Origin: Mesaphorura yosii | Taxonomy: Eukaryota > Arthropoda > Collembola > Poduromorpha > Tullbergiidae | Assembly: GCA_009869945.1 (NCBI GenBank) | Contig: WIXG01000604.1 | Coordinates: forward strand, 1-33,197 | Length of the DNA: 33,197 nt | Direction: 5' to 3' | Shown: positions 15,499-28,927 of the stretch, piece by piece | Layout: each line of letters starts with the position of its first letter | Position numbering within the stretch: the first letter of the stretch is position 1 | Made by a program: the position numbers and the translations under genes | The notes under the pieces: model-generated | What the model was told of the DNA's origin: nothing | Seen by the model: only the letters and a program-made list of their open reading frames with translations | Database searches by the model: none

Positions 15499-17892
15499 CT
15501 ACTTTTGGGGTTCTTTATGATGTAACTTCAAGCTACGATGTAATGCACTGAATGACGGCCGCGCTTCCGGGTCATGGCTCCAGCAGGAAAGCATTGTCTG
15601 GTAGCTGTTGAGAATCCATAAATACGTCTCCAAATAGTACCACCACCAGAACATACACTTACAAGGAATAGTCACCTGCTGTACCGAATTGTCAGTACAG
15701 TACGTAAACATACATGTCATCGTACGCGGTGCTCGGTTGTTCCAACCTCAACCCATTCTGAAGTTCTTTCACGTACTCCGCGTACCCGTGCACGTACAGG
15801 CTCGGATTCAAGTACGGGAGCTTAGCCAAGCTGTAAATCTCCCACATTGTGACTCCAAAGGACCACACGTCCGAGGCTGTGGAATACTTGCCATCGACCA
15901 GGGCTTCCGGCGGAAGCCAACGCCAGGGAACCTCTTTCTGTGAATAGGAAAATGGTAAGCCGGGACGAAGGCATAATTTAATCTTGATTCTTGACGTTCT
16001 TCAGACTTGAATAGTTTCCAACCTTTTTCGAGCGCATGTAGATAGGATTTGTATACAGCTGCTTTGAGAGTCCAAAATCCGTGAGTTTCACGTGAGCCCG
16101 GTCTTTAAGTAGCACGTTACGCGCAGCCAAGTCTCCATGAATCACAGCTTTACTCGATAAATACTCCATTGCATCCGAGATTTGAAGCGCCCATGTGGCC
16201 ATGAGCTCCAGGGACACGTGTTCGTTCGGGATGAACTGTGTTGCCGTACTCATGTAAAATCTGTGGCGTGAAAAAAATATGGCCGAGTTGTACTTATCTG
16301 GTAGACTCTCAAATGGGGTTCGTGTTCAGGGTTCCTAAGCTAAGCTAAGCTAACCGAACCCGAACCCCATTTGAAAGTTTGCGAGATACGTACAACTCGA
16401 CAACCCGAACCCTGAACTCGGCCAAAAATATTTGCCAAAGACAACGCGCCATTTTCTGTTTGAACTTACTCATGCCGCTGTCCACCAGCACACTGACTAA
16501 GCAACTGGGCCTGTGCCGCTCCAAATACGAATGCAGATTCCCGAGCGGACATTCTTCGACGACCAGGTACAGCTTGTTGTCTGTTTCAGTGTCGGTGTAC
16601 GTGCCCACCAGCTGCACAATGAAAGGGTGCTGGTGGACCAAGTCCAAGGTCAAAAATGCCAGCACCTTCAACTCTGCGAGTAAGGAAACATTACAATGGT
16701 CGTCACCTTCCCCTGCTTCGTCTTTTGTAGCCTTCAAGGCTACATTCTCGCCTTTGTACACGCCTCCGTACACGATTCCAAAGTACCCCTGACCGAGCAC
16801 ATTTTGTTTATCTACACAGCGGAGACAGTGCTTAAGTACAAGGAGCAGCATACAAACGAGTACGAAATAAAAATAAGAAAATGAATTGAATTGCTAATTG
16901 CGTACAGCTTACCGAAGGAGAGCTCGCCTGGCTTGATCGCAAGCCTTTGAACAAGGCTATGGTTGACTGCCTCTTGTTGGCCGTTCCGCGTCGTAAAATA
17001 TCGGCACTGGTATTGGGAGAGCATTTTTGATAAAAAGCTTCGCCTTCGCACAGCCATACGAACCCCCAGAGACAGAAGAATGACTCCGGTGAGGGATAGC
17101 ATCATAGGAAATACCAACGCTGATAAGTCATTCTCTGTTTCAGTTCCTGTTCCAAGATCTTGCTCAGGCTCCACATCGTCACCACCTTCAGGTTGACGAT
17201 CAAATACGCAATCCTCGACGTACAGGCTTGTGCTCCTCTCTCTGCAGTAAGAGAACTGAGACCAACTCCCGAAGTTCGGTTTGGCGGCTGCAAGGTCGCG
17301 AGCACACTTTATGGTATCGGACAGGTCTGGTTGGAGCAAGTCTGCAACCATTTGAAAGAAGGAGACCGGACCGGACCATGTTTCAAGCAGAGCACGGGAT
17401 TTACATAGAATTTGAGAATTTACTTGAGCACGGCATGCCACAAAGGTTTGGAGTCTGGTAATCCTTGTCCGAGCACCACCACTGATTATTTACCTGTTGG
17501 GATTAGAACGACGTCACAGATGGTGTCAAGAATTTGATCGAGACAATCAAAATAGACCGTATGTATGTATTTACCGCAAAGAGTCCATACATGGTCGCAT
17601 TCGTGTTTTTGTTCCACCATTTGAAGGAGGAGTTCCAGTAACTGCTTTGATGGGCCAGGCAAATCCCTGTGCAACAACAGGAAATCACGGGTGGGGTCTA
17701 ATTTTCTGCAGTGGGAATCGAACGACGGGACTCACAGTCTCCAAGTTCCTCTTTGCTAAAATTGTGATCCCACAGTATTTGTGCAAGCTCACAGCGAGTA
17801 TAGACTTTGGACTCGGAAAGCAGTGCCAACGCCAGAAATAGAGTGAATCCAATGACGGTCGTACATATGAAGATTGGAGACAGATGATCCAT
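15499..17892 (-). CDS. Receptor tyrosine kinase with c-type lysozyme ectodomain
   Basis: A predicted single-pass receptor kinase. Exons: 17892-17736, 17666-17575, 17493-17424, 17341-16913, 16811-16498, 16235-16023, 15937-15714, 15604-15499; 534 aa. Residues 1-28 are a signal peptide. Residues 29-153 are a c-type lysozyme domain opening [12 protein letters not shown], with cysteines 34, 55, 90, 101, 105, 119, 139 and 151 spaced as in hen lysozyme. The catalytic Glu35 position is Ser60 and the Asp52 position is Met78, so hydrolysis is not expected. An acidic linker precedes a TM helix (181-200) and basic RMAVRRR. The kinase (250-534) has GQGYFG, Lys276, Glu296, HGDLAARN (387-394) and DFG (407). 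The exon 5/6 junction is uncertain: the stronger donor after 16470 leads to a stop with the nearest acceptor, whereas GTCAGT/ACACAG keeps frame and length. The role as a sensor of bacterial wall or another glycan is inference. Confidence 0.88.
16281..16423. repeat. Nested inverted repeat inside the lysozyme-kinase intron
   Basis: Arms pair as CGAGTTGTAC (16284-16293) with GTACAACTCG (16390-16399), and TCAAATGGGGTTCG (16309-16322) with CGAACCCCATTTGA (16361-16374). Between them is a CTAAG tandem repeat (16335-16353). A further pair, TTCAGGGTTC (16325-16334) and GAACCCTGAA (16407-16416), and GGCCGAG (16281-16287) with CTCGGCC (16417-16423), overlap the first hairpin. This looks like a small non-autonomous hairpin element or a rearranged MITE. 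It lies in the same intron whose splice sites are ambiguous. Confidence 0.75.
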
Positions 17893-21756: not shown

Positions 21757-24700
21757 ATGTGTCTTGCCCTCATCTTGGTCTTGGCGTTACTGCCCACTCC
21801 CAGTGTCCTCTGTCTTCAGTTGGACAGTGATGGCGGCTACCACATCGTCGTGGCGATTGCAGATTCTGATGTGTCGCCCATGGGCAATGGCACAGAAGCC
21901 GGAGAATACATTAATTCCGTGAAGGTATCCAGTTGCTCACTTTGCAAATTAATTTCTTCATTTGTGTCATTTTGCTGCAGGAAATGCTGAACAACTTTGC
22001 AGCCATACTTTGGGCGGCAACCAATTCGGTGTTTTTTCTCAAATCGGCCCAGCTTTTATTACCCGCGTCCTGGAGTACGAAACTTGGGTTCGAGGCGAAT
22101 GTTTCAATGTACGAATTTGCATTCCAACCATAAGTCAGACCTACGAGTGAGGGGTCCTTATTCGATTAACATTTATGTACGTATAGTGCTGGAGCCATAG
22201 ACGCACGAGCTCCGCATTTACACTCAATTTGTTCGTTAGGGATCGTTTTAATGAATTTCAGCGCGAAATGTCAAAATATGGCTTTTCTCTGACTTTTCAA
22301 TATAATTTCCTGGAACATTTCCGTCTCCAACGTTTCCAAGCACTATCTTTCCTCGGATAGCTGGACCCAGCTTTTCGGCCATCAAATATTGAAAAACGTG
22401 TAAAGCGTATAAGCGAGAACATATCCTCATTTCACCGGAGTCACAGAATGTTGAATCATTAAGTTTGCAAGTTTCTCCCGAATTTACACTGCAGGAGCTC
22501 AGAGACTTCAGACACCCCATGGTTACCGCTTGGGGCGAGGGAGGGGGTCAGCTTGTGGATGCTCCATCCTGCTGCTTAGGCAATTTTTTGATCCTGGGTA
22601 TTGTCTTCCTATGTCTCCAGGAATCCTAAAGAAGGAATTTGCACAAATTTTTAAATGCTTGCCTCCAGCGAGACACTGCGGACATTGAGGTTGGTACAGC
22701 CGCCATCTTGTTTGAAAACTTCAGAATGGCGGTTTATCGCTATTCTGCAAATGTTCCGATAGCTTGCATATTTCACTTTAAATTAACTGCACCAAACAGG
22801 GGTGAATGCTGGACGTCATACCGAGGGGCCAGCATGGTTTTAAAAGCCGGTGGTATCCCCATCGCATAGCACATTTATTTCAGGCTAGATAGCGCTCCAA
22901 ACGGTTGCAAGCGCATGATCTGCGAAAGAGCCACCGGAAACTTCAACAGGTGTTATTGTGCGCCAGGCAATTGTCCTTCCAGGGAATAGATGCAGAGCTC
23001 GTACGAAAAGTGTTGTTTACCAGATCTACGAATTACCTGCAATTCAAAAGTGATCGAATAAGGGCGCCCCACCATTTGTAATCAAAAATGTTTGTAAAAT
23101 GTGAATCCGATGAATTACAGGGCGACTTATGTTGGCGCTGACGTGCAGATTTCAGGAGACACTGACGTACCAGTTGCCGAGAATTATTACCCTTGCGGCA
23201 CGCCTGGGGTGCGTATCCGGCTACCGGTTTGGTTTCTTGATGCCAATCGCACACGTGACGAGTTCGGATCGCAATGTACGTTAATTTATCAACTGAATTT
23301 TGAATGTCATTTAATTCATTGAAGAATCTATCCATGCATTTTGCCACTTCACAGCCAAGGGTCTCCTGAACCTCTGGCTCCGGTACAGGTTTGGAGTTTG
23401 GGAGGAACACGGCTACCCAGGACACCCAATCACGCCATACTTTTACCGCCCGAACGTTGTGGAGGAGGGACCAGTGCCCGCACTGTGGCGCGTGACTTCC
23501 TGCAACGCTTCCGAACTGCTCGGGGAATTAAGCCCAGTAAACCGCAACTCGAGCAGAACCTGTGATTTGCACGACTTTGACGCACTGGACAAGAGTTGTC
23601 GTTTCCATCCTGGAGCGGACGTCAACGAAAAGAACGTGCGCACGTCACTGATGAATTTTCAGTGGGTTGAATCTTTGCAGGGTCTTTGCGACGAGGGCAC
23701 GCACGACACACGGGCGCCGAACCGACAGAATTTGTATTGCGACTTCCGCAGTGTGTGGGAGGTTATTCGGTCCAGCCAGGACTTCCGGACCTTGAAGAAA
23801 GAGGCAACTGGCATGAGTAGCACGATGCCCTCAATTCGATACGATGTCGTTATCCCAAATTCAAAGCCCGTGCTCTACATACTTTTCGATCTGAGTGACC
23901 CGGATTTTACTTGGAGAGACAACGTGTACAACATGTGGATGGTTGAACTCGAAGCGTTCGTGAACGCCTTACCTTCGGACGTATACGTGTCGCTGACAAT
24001 TTATCCAAACTTGCTGGACCCGTCGACGGATCTGGAGAGGAAATTGAACTGGACTTTATTGGATGAAGCGAAGAGAGGGGAACTTCTAAGGTTAGGGTGG
24101 AATCCGACGTTTCGTTCAGACGATTTCCATTTAGGAATGAAAAAATAGGTAGATTGGACCTGGGGCGAAAGGTCCATGTGACAAAAGCGCTTGATACAAA
24201 CAGAGCTAGGCGAGAAATACCTGCGCCCTTTCTAAGACTAATTCTATGTATATGTCCATCACAAAAGAAATGTTAAACTCCCATGCTAAGACAAATGTTA
24301 AAGTTAAATGTTGGGACAAAAGTTGCATTCCCATGCTAAAGCATCTTAAATGCCGATGCTAAGATAAATGCTAAATGCCCATGCTGCACTCATTAAATGC
24401 CCATGATAAAACAACTGTAAATTATGCCTTATCATGGAAGTTTAACACTTATCTTGTGATGAGCATTTGCTTTGCATTGGTCTTTTTTTTACCTATTCTT
24501 CTTGTATCAACTTTGTAGGCCCATATGACATAGGTTCAATTTAACAAGGTCTATGATACTGAATTCGTTGTACAAGTTACGTCCAAAATGTAAATCACAT
24601 GTCCGCGTTTCGTAGAATACTCGACTTTGTACATCACACTGAACATGAACTTACGAAATATTTCGACTTCCGCCTACCGCTTGCCGAGGTTTTGTCCGAA

Positions 24701-27700
24701 CTGAAGCAGACGTCAAAAAGTTCCCCAAATGGTACCGACACTCTCTTATTGGTTCTTCGAACGGAGCAGATACCCCTTGAAGTTTTTATGCAATTTTGTA
24801 AGTTATGAAAGGATGAGAAACGGGGACATGGCAGATTGACCACTAACTCGGAGTGCAATATTTTTAGTCCAGGGTCCCGCACCGTACGAAGAAGATTTCG
24901 TCGTCGAATTGAGGCAGCATGGAATTTCGTTGTTTGCTCTGGAGGCGAATTTGGTATTTGACGAAAATAATCCAAATATGACTCTAGAGTATCTGGCAAC
25001 CATATCCGGTGGAATGTATTCGGAGCTGACCAGCAAAGACCCGTCGGACGAGGAAATGGCGGGGATGCGTTCGGTCTTTATGTCTGTACTGGACAGGCTT
25101 TCAGGAGACGCTAAAGTTGACGTACATGCGCATGAAGTGTACGAGGTCATCTACAAGGAACTGCTGACCAACGTTTCGCAAAAATCTGTGTTCATCCCAC
25201 AGCCAAGTGTGTGTGCCATGGAAATTGTGCACATCTACGTCACTGTTGCCGGCGGAACCGGTGCTCGGCTGGAAAAGATTGAATTGCTACTGCCTGGCCA
25301 TGACAACAGCGCTGTTCCCTTCACTTCACGGAGGGAATGGTTCCCATCGGTATCGGTGAGTGGGGAGGAAGAAAAGTGGGCTACTATACTGCCGCAGACG
25401 TACAGTACAATCATCATCTCAGAGTTCCAAGAACCGAAGAAAGCCGAGCCAAACGGGGCGTCGTTTTGGGAGCTCCGTGTTTCGCTGGTACGGGACACCA
25501 GCGAATTTGGGGAACATTGGGGGCTGGGGTCGATGCGGGGCGTTGTAACTGTGTACGGTGTCAAGGCGCCCGGGTACAGGATCCTATCTCATAAAACCCT
25601 ATGACCGTGACATAGCCGACATTTCGACAAAAATGTCAATCCCAAAAAATTTGGATCTTATAAAGATTTTCTGACATTTGACAGTGACTGTGACACTTTG
25701 ACATAGTGCCACACACTGTCACCACAATTATGTCACTTCGTGACATAATCCTACCTCATAGTTCTTAATGTAGCTAGAGTGTCGCGAATGTCAAGAAATT
25801 CGTGACAGAGGTCCGGTTCGCAATCAACTTGGCTAATTATGCGAAAGTAGTTACTTTAATTCTGATTAATTTTGGTTTTTGAATAGAAAAATATGTTTCT
25901 TACCAAAGTCACTTGATTTTGTTAAGAAATGTGTGCAGCTTCACTAATTAATTTAGTAATCAGTCCCTTTTTTCTCGGTCAACGATTTCAAGTGCCGGCG
26001 GAAATTTTTTCAAAAAATATGTCACTTTCTGAAAATATGTCAAATAGTGCAAAATTTTTTATGATGGTGGTACCTTGTCATTGCCAAAATCTCGGTCTGT
26101 GTCACCCTTAAATATGTCATGCCCGCGGGGTTTTATGAGATCCAGGGCCAAAGCAGCGGCCTGCGGTGTCCCTCGCCAAAATCGACCGACTTTGAAAGCG
26201 GAAATATTTACATCTGCCGATGCAGACGGCAAATTTGGATGTGCTGATCGAGCCGTCAATGAATTGCCACTGGCAATCTACGCCAAAGTATTTGCGGATG
26301 ATGGTAACATGAGTGGACCGGTACCAATCCTTCTCGACGGTCCACAAAACTCCAGTGGTGGCGGTAACGATGCAGGCCAGCCATCGATGTCGACAATGTC
26401 CGCGCATTTGCTGCATCTGCAGACCGGAACCTCAATCACAATGGTGTTGCGTGACGATGGCCTTGCTGGGGACCTGGTCGCGGGGGACGGACTCTATTCC
26501 GGCTACGTTTACCCACACTTGAAAGGTGGATGGAGGCTCTACATTACCGTCTACGACATGACAGGTGGGTTTTTAGCACAACTTCGTACAGAACTGATTC
26601 ATAGTGTTTATATTAATTACAGCTACTACTTTAAGTGACTGCTGTGTGTGTACATCTGTCTGTCTCTCCTTGCGTGCGATCAAGGGTTGCAAATTTCCCA
26701 ATGAAATTTGTATAGTATATTCTTGGGGTAAAAATTAAGGCTGAGTTCGAAGATGGGCACCCGAGGTCAAAGGGCACCGGAGTGATAAAAAATTTTGTAT
26801 TTTAAAATAAACTGGACGGCATCGAGACAATTCGAGACATCCTCCTGCCGCAGCGGTATGGCTGAGAAGGGAGTCGGACCTGAGAATGACGGTCGGTCTC
26901 CAGTTCGATTCCTCATACCATGAAATGTTTTTGTAATTTTTAATCGATCTCTAGGACTTCTGGGGACAATCTGGCAAGCTTTTCTGGCGCTACTTTTATA
27001 CTTCTGGCCTTGAACGGTTTCTTACGATAACTTTTGAAATTCTTTATTGGATAGACAGCACGAGCGTTGAGCGATCGCACGTGATCAATCCGATTGGCCG
27101 AATTCATTCTGTAAAACAAGACGATTTGGAGGTGACCATAGCGGGACGGACATTGACCACACCATACTCGACTGTCTTCGAAGCCCAGAATCTGATTCGA
27201 GTCACGGACGCATGTGTACGAAAGCGGTTCCTGTCCCGTGTCGTGGACACACAAGTCGTGGTTCTGGACGGTGAAAGTGCTGAGTTCGTCAAAGTGACTT
27301 TTACAGCGCCAGTTCTTACGGTATCCCAAGACGAAGACTTGGAAGACGACCCGGGTACGCCCTCCTTCACAATTTCGAATAATTCATAATTGCTAAATCA
27401 TTGCTACATCATTCCATAACAGAGTTCAGTGGTTATTTTGTGGTCATGGCTTACCTTGCCGAGCACGTGGACACTTTGATCAACGACTTCACTCACGAAT
27501 CCGTACACGTTCAAGGCTTTTTGATTCATTCCAAAACTTCGGGACGGGCAATCGATCCAGTGACGTTGAAGCGCGGGAACGCGACTGCGTACGCAATGGT
27601 GTTGATGGCCCCTGGTCAAATAACTGCGAAATCTCCGCTGTCTAACATTGTCCAGATCAAAGGGTGGCATCAGCAACCTGTACCCGCCGAGAGCGTTGGC

Positions 27701-28927
27701 TGTCTCATTGGTTGCGTGCTCGTCATTGAAATCGCGGGTGGTCTGGTCATTTTATTTCTCGTGCTGACTCTATTTCTACTCTGGAAAAAGAACCAGTCAC
27801 AGGCAACAAAGCTGCGGGAATTGTCCACGGCTGAAGTGAAAGAATTCTTGCACGGACAAAAGCAAATCCAAGGTAAAGGAGCAGCAAAACCGAATGGAGC
27901 GACGGAGGAGGAATTCGTCGACATGTCCGAGCGAATCCAGTCCCTCCCGTACGACAGTAAATACGAAATCCCACACAACAAACTGCACATTGACAAATCC
28001 GAGATGCTGGGCTCGGGTACTTTTGGAAATGTGTACAAAGGCTATGTTGTGAACCACGGCGCCGCAGGAGCGGCGGGGAAGGTGCTGATCGTGGCTGTCA
28101 AGACGATGAAGCCTGATATGGACAAATCGTACTTCAAAGAATTGCTGGCAGAGGTGAAGCTCATGACTCACATTGACGGGGCGCATCCCAACATTATTCG
28201 ATTAGTGGGCGCTTGCACAAAGAATATCAGAAAATGCCAAGTATTCCTCGCCACGGAGTTTTGCTCCAATGGAAATCTGTCATCGTATTTGCTGACGCTG
28301 AACAGCGCCACCGTGTCCATATACAGCCTGATTAAGTGGGCCCGTGAAATTGCAAACGGATTGGAATTCCTCGGACAGAACAAAATAATTCACGGCGACT
28401 TGGCGGCCAGAAACATTTTGTTAGATGGGAATTTGGTGGCCAAAGTCAGTGACTTTGGTCTTTCGAAGCAATCGATTCAGTACGCAAAATATGAGGGACC
28501 AGGCGACGCGGACGAGGAGGAGGCGGTGGGTAGGCTGTTGCCTTGGAAGTGGGTTGCTCCCGAAGTGCTCCAATTCGGCAAATTCTCGCTTCGCTCTGAT
28601 GTGTGGTCCTATGGAGTAACACTTTGGGAAATCTTCAGCCTTGGCCAAGTTCCCTACCCGGGCATTCAATGGAGCCCCGATTTTGTCCACAAGTTGGAGC
28701 ACACGGGACTGAGGCTGTTGAAGCCAAACTTTGCGACGGACGCTGTTCACGATATCATGCGCTCCTGCTGGGCGCTGGACCCAAAGAAGCGGCCGGGGTT
28801 CAGTAGATTGAAGGCAGGATTCGATCAGATGATGGTCAACACGGCGGATGGAGAATATCTCAACTTGCAGGTCGCCGCAGATACAAATGACTTCAATACG
28901 AAAATGTCTAAGACCCATGTTAATTGA
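21757..28927 (+). CDS. Receptor tyrosine kinase with CLCA-type ectodomain
   Basis: A predicted single-pass receptor kinase of 1432 aa. Exons: 21757-21924, 21981-22108, 23121-23275, 23355-24090, 24616-24797, 24868-25573, 26146-26564, 27055-27354, 27423-28927; all phases agree. After a signal peptide, residues 22-1010 follow the calcium-activated chloride channel regulator (CLCA) layout: EMLNNFAAILWAATNSVFF, the CGTPG segment, a metalloprotease-like core, APNRQNLYCDFRSVWEVI (271-288), a VWA domain from about 322, LRDDGLAGDLVAGDGLYSGY, and PLSNIVQI. The HEWAH zinc motif is replaced (LLNLWLRYRFGVWEEHG, 154-170), and the VWA metal site reads DLSDP. TM is about 1026-1051. The kinase has LPYD-KYEIP, GSGTFG (1128-1133), Lys1158, HGDLAARN (1255-1262), DFG (1275) and a C-terminal YLNL, a possible Grb2-type SH2 site. 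Fusion by misjoined genes is unlikely because exon 9 itself holds the CLCA end, TM and kinase. Confidence 0.9.
22886..22989 (+). other. Cysteine-rich open frame inside the large CLCA-kinase intron
   Basis: After a good acceptor (TTTATTTCAG at about 22875-22884), the frame reads LDSAPNGCKRMICERATGNF and NRCYCAPGNCPSRE, then TAG. Cysteine spacing is C-x4-C-x9-C-x-C-x4-C, suggestive of a small disulfide-bonded module. No signal-peptide exon could be paired with it, and the nearest upstream donor would make an implausibly short intron. It may be an alternative exon, a nested-gene relic, or chance. Confidence 0.2.
24270..24416 (+). repeat. Degenerate minisatellite in a CLCA-kinase intron
   Basis: The unit TTAAATGCCCATGCTAAGA recurs in varied form about six times (for example CTCCCATGCTAAGACAAATG, TTAAATGCCGATGCTAAGA, CTAAATGCCCATGCTGCA, TTAAATGCCCATGATAAAA). 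Spacing is irregular at about 15-35 bp. It lies wholly within the 525-bp intron between exons 4 and 5. Confidence 0.65.
25605..25810. repeat. TGACA/TGTCA-rich palindromic stretch in an intron
   Basis: TGACA or its complement TGTCA occurs many times in about 200 bp. A perfect hairpin lies at its core: TTATGTCAC (25728-25736), a TTC loop, and GTGACATAA (25740-25748). It sits in the 572-bp intron between exons 6 and 7 of the CLCA kinase. Confidence 0.55.
26852..26921 (+). repeat. tRNA-like element with A and B boxes (possible SINE)
   Basis: TGGCTGAGAAGGG (26859) matches the tRNA internal A-box pattern, and AGTTCGATTCC (26902-26912) is one base from the B-box consensus; the 45-nt distance between the T8 and T54 positions is near tRNA geometry. 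GGTATG (26855) and CATACC (26914) could pair as part of an acceptor stem. The T-stem does not pair well, so it is not a working tRNA gene. A tRNA-derived SINE head in the intron is possible. Confidence 0.3.

Follow-up and report, generated by a model that had tools for sequence, protein, structure and literature searches.

A springtail receptor tyrosine kinase with a catalytically dead c-type lysozyme as its predicted ectodomain

A gene in a 33,197-nucleotide stretch of DNA from the springtail Mesaphorura yosii (contig WIXG01000604.1, considered at its full length and called the window below) is predicted to encode a receptor tyrosine kinase (RTK) whose ectodomain is a c-type lysozyme devoid of both catalytic residues. 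Such a lysozyme-RTK with a dead active site had been proposed in an initial annotation of this DNA, and the evidence for it is strong: a single reading frame, and the same layout at eight loci, the window included. Taken as a whole, the protein is probably a single-pass RTK of a springtail expansion of PVR/VEGFR-like kinases, in which an ectodomain drawn from the animal's own lysozymes has lost both catalytic residues and has been kept as a binding module, and in which a glycan-type ligand would cluster the receptor. The features of the window are collected in Table 1.

Table 1. Position and content of the features of the window (position 1 is the first letter of the whole stretch).
Feature	Position	Strand	Content
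Lysozyme-RTK gene	17892-15499	minus	ATG at 17892, stop ending at 15499; eight-exon open model
Exon 1	17736-17892	minus	Signal peptide (about residues 1-28) and lysozyme to Trp28 (hen numbering)
Exon 2	17575-17666	minus	Lysozyme; holds the lost Glu35 (Ser60) and the lost Asp52 (Met78)
Exon 3	17424-17493	minus	Lysozyme VNNQWWC..., cysteines 3-5
Exon 4	16913-17341	minus	Lysozyme end (cysteines 6-8), acidic stalk, TM helix then RRRS, juxtamembrane segment
Exon 5	16470-16811	minus	Kinase N-lobe (GQGYFG, VALK) and hinge; lower limit 16470 or 16466, according to how intron 5 is spliced
Exon 6	16023-16297	minus	Catalytic loop; upper limit 16297 with the canonical donor, or 16260 with the canonical acceptor and a weak donor
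Exon 7	15714-15937	minus	Kinase C-lobe
Exon 8	15499-15604	minus	Kinase C-lobe end (IYQTMLSCW) and stop codon
Foldback (inverted-repeat) element, intron 5	16271-16433	none	Arms 16284-16327/16356-16399 and 16271-16289/16415-16433
CLCA N-terminal domain PF08434	23372-23791	plus	E 1.3e-16
Second tyrosine kinase frame	27383-28924	plus	CLCA domain 4.7 kb upstream; whole pair 23315-28924

The gene lies on the strand and between the limits first given for it, and its first four exons, which had been said to encode a signal peptide and a c-type lysozyme, are bounded by GT-AG splice sites with consistent phases, intron 1 being in phase 1 within the codon of Trp28 (hen numbering). The product reads, in order, as a signal peptide, the lysozyme domain (KVYTRCELA...YVEDCVF), an acidic stalk, a transmembrane (TM) helix with RRRS and a tyrosine kinase, the signal peptide and the TM helix having been judged by eye from the translation. 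The fourth exon, to which a TM helix had also been ascribed, unites by itself the last three lysozyme cysteines, this helix and the juxtamembrane segment in one reading frame. The kinase that follows in the same model, as had likewise been claimed, matches PF07714 (E 2.8e-69, 233.7 bits) and has intact catalytic motifs. Besides the junction at intron 5, which is treated below, the exons are open, and no stop falls between lysozyme and kinase in the model. Neither an Ig domain nor an Amidase_2 (PGRP/amidase) domain was recognized in it by Pfam.

The lysozyme domain matches PF00062 (Lys) over profile positions 1-118 of 123 (E 6.2e-21, 75.3 bits, for a cut-off of 27 bits). Among PDB sequences, 279 distinct entries match at E <= 0.001; the best is lysozyme C 2gv0 (E 7e-23), and the best 60 of the 279 are all lysozymes. 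All eight cysteines are present (residues 34, 55, 90, 101, 105, 119, 139 and 151), and the gaps of 21, 35, 11, 4, 14, 20 and 12 originally reported are exact by residue count. Profiles, cysteines and the PDB sequence match together support a lysozyme fold for the predicted ectodomain. From a biochemical perspective, the c-type lysozyme enzyme (EC 3.2.1.17) requires both Glu35 and Asp52, in place of which the window copy has Ser60 and Met78; these substitutions, also pointed out in the initial annotation, were confirmed by alignment.

The window gene is one member of a family. In the assembly searched (93.0 Mb, 1127 contigs, named here by C and a number, the window being C604), eight of the 13 lysozyme loci, window included, precede a kinase match on the same strand by less than 6 kb, at 0.9-1.35 kb, and none of the 13 follows one within 6 kb, all 149 kinase matches having been used for the count. 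For trypsins, taken as a control, one of the 150 matches listed (of 177) precedes a kinase on the same strand within 6 kb and none follows one. This lone trypsin neighbour (C251:72165-77402, minus strand, 4.3 kb upstream of the kinase) is due either to chance or to another fusion. Lysozyme, Ig domain, TM helix and kinase N-lobe stand in single frames of 441 and 449 codons in C328 and C297, respectively; the second half of the lysozyme, the TM helix and the full kinase share a frame of 500 codons in C535; the lysozyme end, Ig domain, TM helix and kinase a frame of 674 codons in C346; and the lysozyme end, TM helix and most of the kinase a frame of 390 codons in C313. The lysozyme piece within the C346 frame reaches 21.6 bits, under the cut-off, and 80.4 bits together with the upstream exons. 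In C966 and C1 (about 659 kb), lysozyme exons, TM helix and kinase follow one another in order, with continuity from lysozyme to TM helix presumed. Moreover, the truncated frame of C549 encodes a lysozyme domain (64.5 bits) as well as a segment that resembles the Ig part of C297 and is not recognized by Pfam; no kinase was found in the 4.7 kb downstream or, by the kinase search, on the contig, and C549 may be a pseudogene or a soluble decoy form. C1 also bears, near 657 kb, a further and damaged copy in which the catalytic loop is apparently missing. Over the whole genome, the kinase C-lobe has at least 149 matches at exon level, which for 93 Mb is a large expansion of tyrosine kinases, and Amidase_2 (PGRP-type) has two.

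The nine receptor-type domains (C549 included) were aligned with two PDB sequences and with four lysozymes that occur free-standing in the genome. The eight cysteines are found in all 15 rows, nine receptor-type domains among them, and Glu35 and Asp52 are both missing in nine of the nine, with S, G, C, A, A, A, S, L and H at position 35 and M, L, L, E, N, N, S, S and S at position 52. The free-standing lysozymes have Glu35 in four of four cases and Asp52 in three, both residues being present in three, with Lys at position 52 in C118. In three of them the protein ends no more than three residues from the end of the domain, and C118 has a tail of about 50 residues. Acidic loops in C328 (LLDEDLSDDI) and C297 (FLDEDITDDV) resemble, in the alignment read by eye, the calcium-binding loop of alpha-lactalbumin (Asp82, Asp87 and Asp88); by the same reading this loop is missing in the window copy.

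The further claim that the sugar-binding cleft is kept is borne out by half. Around the cleft (hen numbering), the window copy retains Trp62, Trp63, Asn59 and Trp108 and has lost Gln57, Asn44, Asn46 and Asp101. Over the nine receptor-type domains, Trp63 is kept in eight and Trp108 in all, Asn59 in three and Gln57 in one. An N-glycosylation sequon at N39 occurs in seven of the nine and in one of the four free-standing lysozymes; an N49 sequon, just before position 52, occurs in five of the nine, and the free-standing lysozymes have an N48 sequon in two of four. Glycans at the N39 and N49 sequons may cover part of the cleft. The lost contact residues and, in five of the nine domains, the sequon beside the cleft speak against an open sugar cleft, and Trp28, Trp63 and Trp108 may have been kept for folding only.

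With regard to the origin of the domain, introns at codon 28 (phase 1), codons 57/58 (phase 0) and codon 82 (phase 1) can be placed in the window gene and in C346, C966 and C1, although for intron 1 of C1 and C966 an alternative splice reaches an equal or slightly better score; of these introns, the first and second are found in C535 and the first and third in C313. The free-standing lysozymes of C167 and C118 fit all three, in the same phases, with two donors tying for intron 1 in C167, and the one at 552 kb of C1 fits the first and third. Since these positions and phases are common to receptor and free-standing genes, the lysozyme domain of the receptors most likely derives from the animal's own lysozyme genes. 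In the lysozyme tree, built from the same 15 rows, the receptor-type domains fall into two groups, one with C535, C346, C328, C297 and C549 (93/91), three of the five having a Pfam Ig domain, and one with C604, C1, C966 and C313 (98/98). A single origin of the receptor lysozyme domains is neither shown nor excluded.

The kinase tree comprises 36 rows, namely 19 from this genome and 17 from the 120 listed of 6627 kinase matches, five further proteins of that list having been left out. Midpoint-rooted, with four rows flagged as long and a sampling without proturans or diplurans, it separates by a 100/100 branch the 19 genome kinases and eight Collembola rows from nine other arthropod rows. The Collembola RTKs with which they group are annotated as VEGFR-, Kit- or FGFR-like, and the tree places the genome kinases among arthropod RTKs without assigning them to one class. 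The lysozyme-RTKs occupy three kinase groups in this tree. Substitutions were counted by the simple Nei-Gojobori method in six lysozyme and five kinase paralogue comparisons. pS is 0.71-0.90 across the 11 comparisons (0.73-0.90 for the lysozyme domain), near or at saturation, and pN is 0.23-0.39 in the six lysozyme pairs and 0.09-0.28 in the five kinase comparisons. Silent sites are saturated in nine of the 11, so that dN/dS is given only for the C604-C313 lysozyme (0.21) and the C535-C346 kinase (0.08). The low pN of the lysozyme domain against a near-saturated pS indicates that the dead domain has long been maintained by selection. Furthermore, in five of five pairs the copies differ more in the lysozyme domain than in the kinase (50% versus 85% identity for C328/C297), the faster divergence expected of a recognition domain.

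Other hydrolases stand ahead of kinases of the same expansion. In C789 (16300-19200) a single frame of 858 codons runs from a complete subtilase domain (E 7e-28) through a TM helix into a tyrosine kinase, and five of 72 subtilase matches (C789, C981, both strands of C646, and C793) precede a kinase on the same strand by less than 6 kb, with one downstream. The four subtilases read each lack at least one residue of the Asp/His/Ser triad, the positions of which were assigned from subtilisin: His and Ser are lost in C789, His in C981, where Ser is kept, all three on the minus strand of C646 (Thr for Ser), and Ser on its plus strand, where Asp and His are kept. The free-standing subtilases of C500 and C225 have the complete triad. 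Similarly, five of 21 CLCA matches precede a kinase on the same strand by less than 6 kb (the window, C37, C387, C185 and C610); in the window pair no Pfam family was recognized in the unspliced stretches between CLCA domain and kinase. The three CLCA domains read have (N/S)LWLR at the site of the HExxH motif of CLCA proteins, and in the window domain HExxH is absent from that site. Finally, in C1099 (2834-6109) a kelch frame is directly upstream of a TM helix and a tyrosine kinase, and this kinase sits with C346 inside the C346/C535 group of the kinase tree, a nesting within lysozyme-RTKs that suggests ectodomain exchange.

How such a receptor might work can be outlined from its parts. Once expressed and brought to the cell surface, the dead lysozyme domain on its TM helix would act as a conserved inactive binding fold that holds a ligand, and by the general logic of RTKs the ligand held by the ectodomain would cluster the receptors and switch the kinase on. 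By analogy with non-catalytic PGRPs, the most likely class of ligand would be a microbial or environmental glycan, such as fragments of peptidoglycan or chitin, which the ectodomain might sense directly, as the initial annotation had supposed; lysozyme-RTKs would then be kinase counterparts of the non-catalytic peptidoglycan-recognition receptors. Because the evidence from the cleft is mixed, a protein ligand is nearly as likely as a glycan. It is accordingly to be taken seriously, if not as our first choice, that within the same architecture the ectodomain binds an endogenous protein, such as a hormone-like ligand or a partner in mating or cell adhesion, or is a dimerizing scaffold rather than a glycan sensor. 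The absence of Gln57, Asn44/46 and Asp101 from the window copy and the sequons beside the cleft are in line with this, as is the ectodomain divergence, which also fits reproduction or cell recognition; in addition, the same kinase stock bears other degenerate hydrolases and a kelch propeller, so that any stable extracellular fold may serve. The tryptophans weigh on the side of the glycan, with Trp63 in eight and Trp108 in nine of nine domains, and the window copy retaining Trp62 and Asn59 as well.

While the family does not hang on intron 5 of the window copy, in-frame splicing of this copy is uncertain at that junction. The donor and acceptor that come closest to consensus (16469 and 16261) shift the frame when joined. 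Two in-frame GT-AG options exist, one with the canonical donor GTAAGTTC and acceptor 16298, which sits within the foldback element, the other with a weak donor at 16465 and the canonical acceptor 16261, and each is weaker on one side. Unlike the window copy, the paralogues C966 and C1 splice here in phase 2. The window copy may be intact with an altered junction, may contain an assembly error or may represent a recent pseudogene. That the family is real and this one copy a pseudogene or an assembly error at intron 5 is rather unlikely. It would account for the frame shift between the best donor and acceptor, the phase 2 of C966 and C1 and the foldback element in the intron, and damaged relatives do exist in the truncated C549 and the tandem copy of C1. 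Against it, an in-frame splice is available with the canonical donor, every other exon is open, the kinase motifs are intact, and in both domains a low pN contrasts with a saturated pS. A recent pseudogene is at odds with this substitution pattern, and for the window copy the idea is kept alive by intron 5.

The ectodomain has also been considered as a bait that senses microbial lysozyme inhibitors or other proteins attacking lysozyme, in a guard-like role. A dead lysozyme on a kinase, together with degenerate proteases on sister kinases, is the layout expected of inhibitor baits, and fast ectodomain divergence fits it too. Known inhibitors of c-type lysozymes, however, contact the catalytic residues, and these contact sites are gone, so that a bait appears decidedly improbable. 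Still less probable, to the point of being scarcely tenable, is some enzymatic activity retained by means of other residues: acids do occur nearby (Glu at 52 in C313, Glu at 34 in C1 and C297), but position 35 is without an acid in nine of nine domains and position 52 in eight of nine, and the substitutes differ among copies. Lastly, two adjoining genes, one for a lysozyme and one for a kinase, which the initial annotation had itself named as a way to refute its proposal, or an assembly join deserve almost no weight. The introns that set the kinase exons apart from exon 4 could speak for such a reading, but exon 4 itself unites lysozyme and TM helix, the model has no stop between lysozyme and kinase, and single open frames with lysozyme sequence, TM helix and kinase sequence at five other loci on separate contigs count heavily against it.

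The preferred reading, an inactive lysozyme mounted on an RTK as a binding module, can be set beside several known systems. With the c-type lysozyme/alpha-lactalbumin family (GH22, PF00062) the receptor domains share a near-whole-domain profile match, the eight cysteines and the intron positions of the free-standing members of the genome, but they lack both catalytic residues and are joined to a TM helix and a tyrosine kinase. A non-enzymatic member of this family has a precedent in alpha-lactalbumin, which is secreted. With arthropod PVR/VEGFR-like RTKs they have in common the HGDLAARN loop, found also in Daphnia and Anopheles VEGFR-like kinases, the grouping of the kinase with springtail RTKs and the Ig domain retained in C328, C297 and C346; they differ in that the window copy has a lysozyme ectodomain instead of several Ig domains and in their many lineage-specific copies. 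Plant LysM receptor kinases combine a glycan-sensing ectodomain, a TM segment and a kinase in one protein, a layout that lysozyme-RTKs would share if the glycan reading is right, although the LysM fold and the serine/threonine-type kinase are different and unrelated. Receptors of the PGRP-LC type are likewise transmembrane receptors built on a hydrolase fold without catalysis, but their fold is that of an amidase, their signalling goes through Imd with no kinase of their own, and their ligand is established. Arthropod PGRPs have frequently lost catalysis, and non-catalytic PGRPs can be recognition receptors (PMC4833078). RTK families gain new ligand specificities through ectodomain exchange (PMC8662651), and the words 'lysozyme', 'hydrolase' and 'peptidase' have no occurrence in the text of that paper on RTK domain shuffling.

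In agreement with the original remark that no described lysozyme-RTK was known to its author, none was found in the open PMC literature or in protein databases, within the limited sensitivity of these searches. No lysozyme-kinase protein appeared among 5.8 billion proteins in a search that needs shared 5-residue words: the lysozyme part of the window protein gave 38 candidates, none at E <= 0.001, and the lysozyme, Ig and TM part of C297 gave 2008, none at E <= 1. Nor does PF00062 occur among the 120 listed of 6627 kinase matches, by a precomputed domain column read by eye. Since the protein searches depend on such words, lysozyme-RTKs of other springtails could escape them.

RTK classes are defined by their ectodomains, and no record of a lysozyme ectodomain was found among them in these searches; a lysozyme-RTK would directly exemplify the conversion of an antimicrobial enzyme into a receptor. 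If its ligand is a cell-wall glycan, the detection of microbes would lead to signalling by a tyrosine kinase without recourse to the Toll and Imd adaptors. It is tentatively proposed, at somewhat less than an even chance, that this lineage has built a repertoire of immune or environmental receptors by repeatedly mounting killed hydrolases (lysozyme, subtilisin and CLCA-type metalloprotease) on one expanded RTK stock, catalysis being traded for recognition with a direct tyrosine phosphorylation signal, which would make them a general class of pseudoenzyme receptor kinases. The parallel decay of unrelated hydrolases beside one kinase stock allows the question of why dead enzymes make good receptors to be tested in a single animal.
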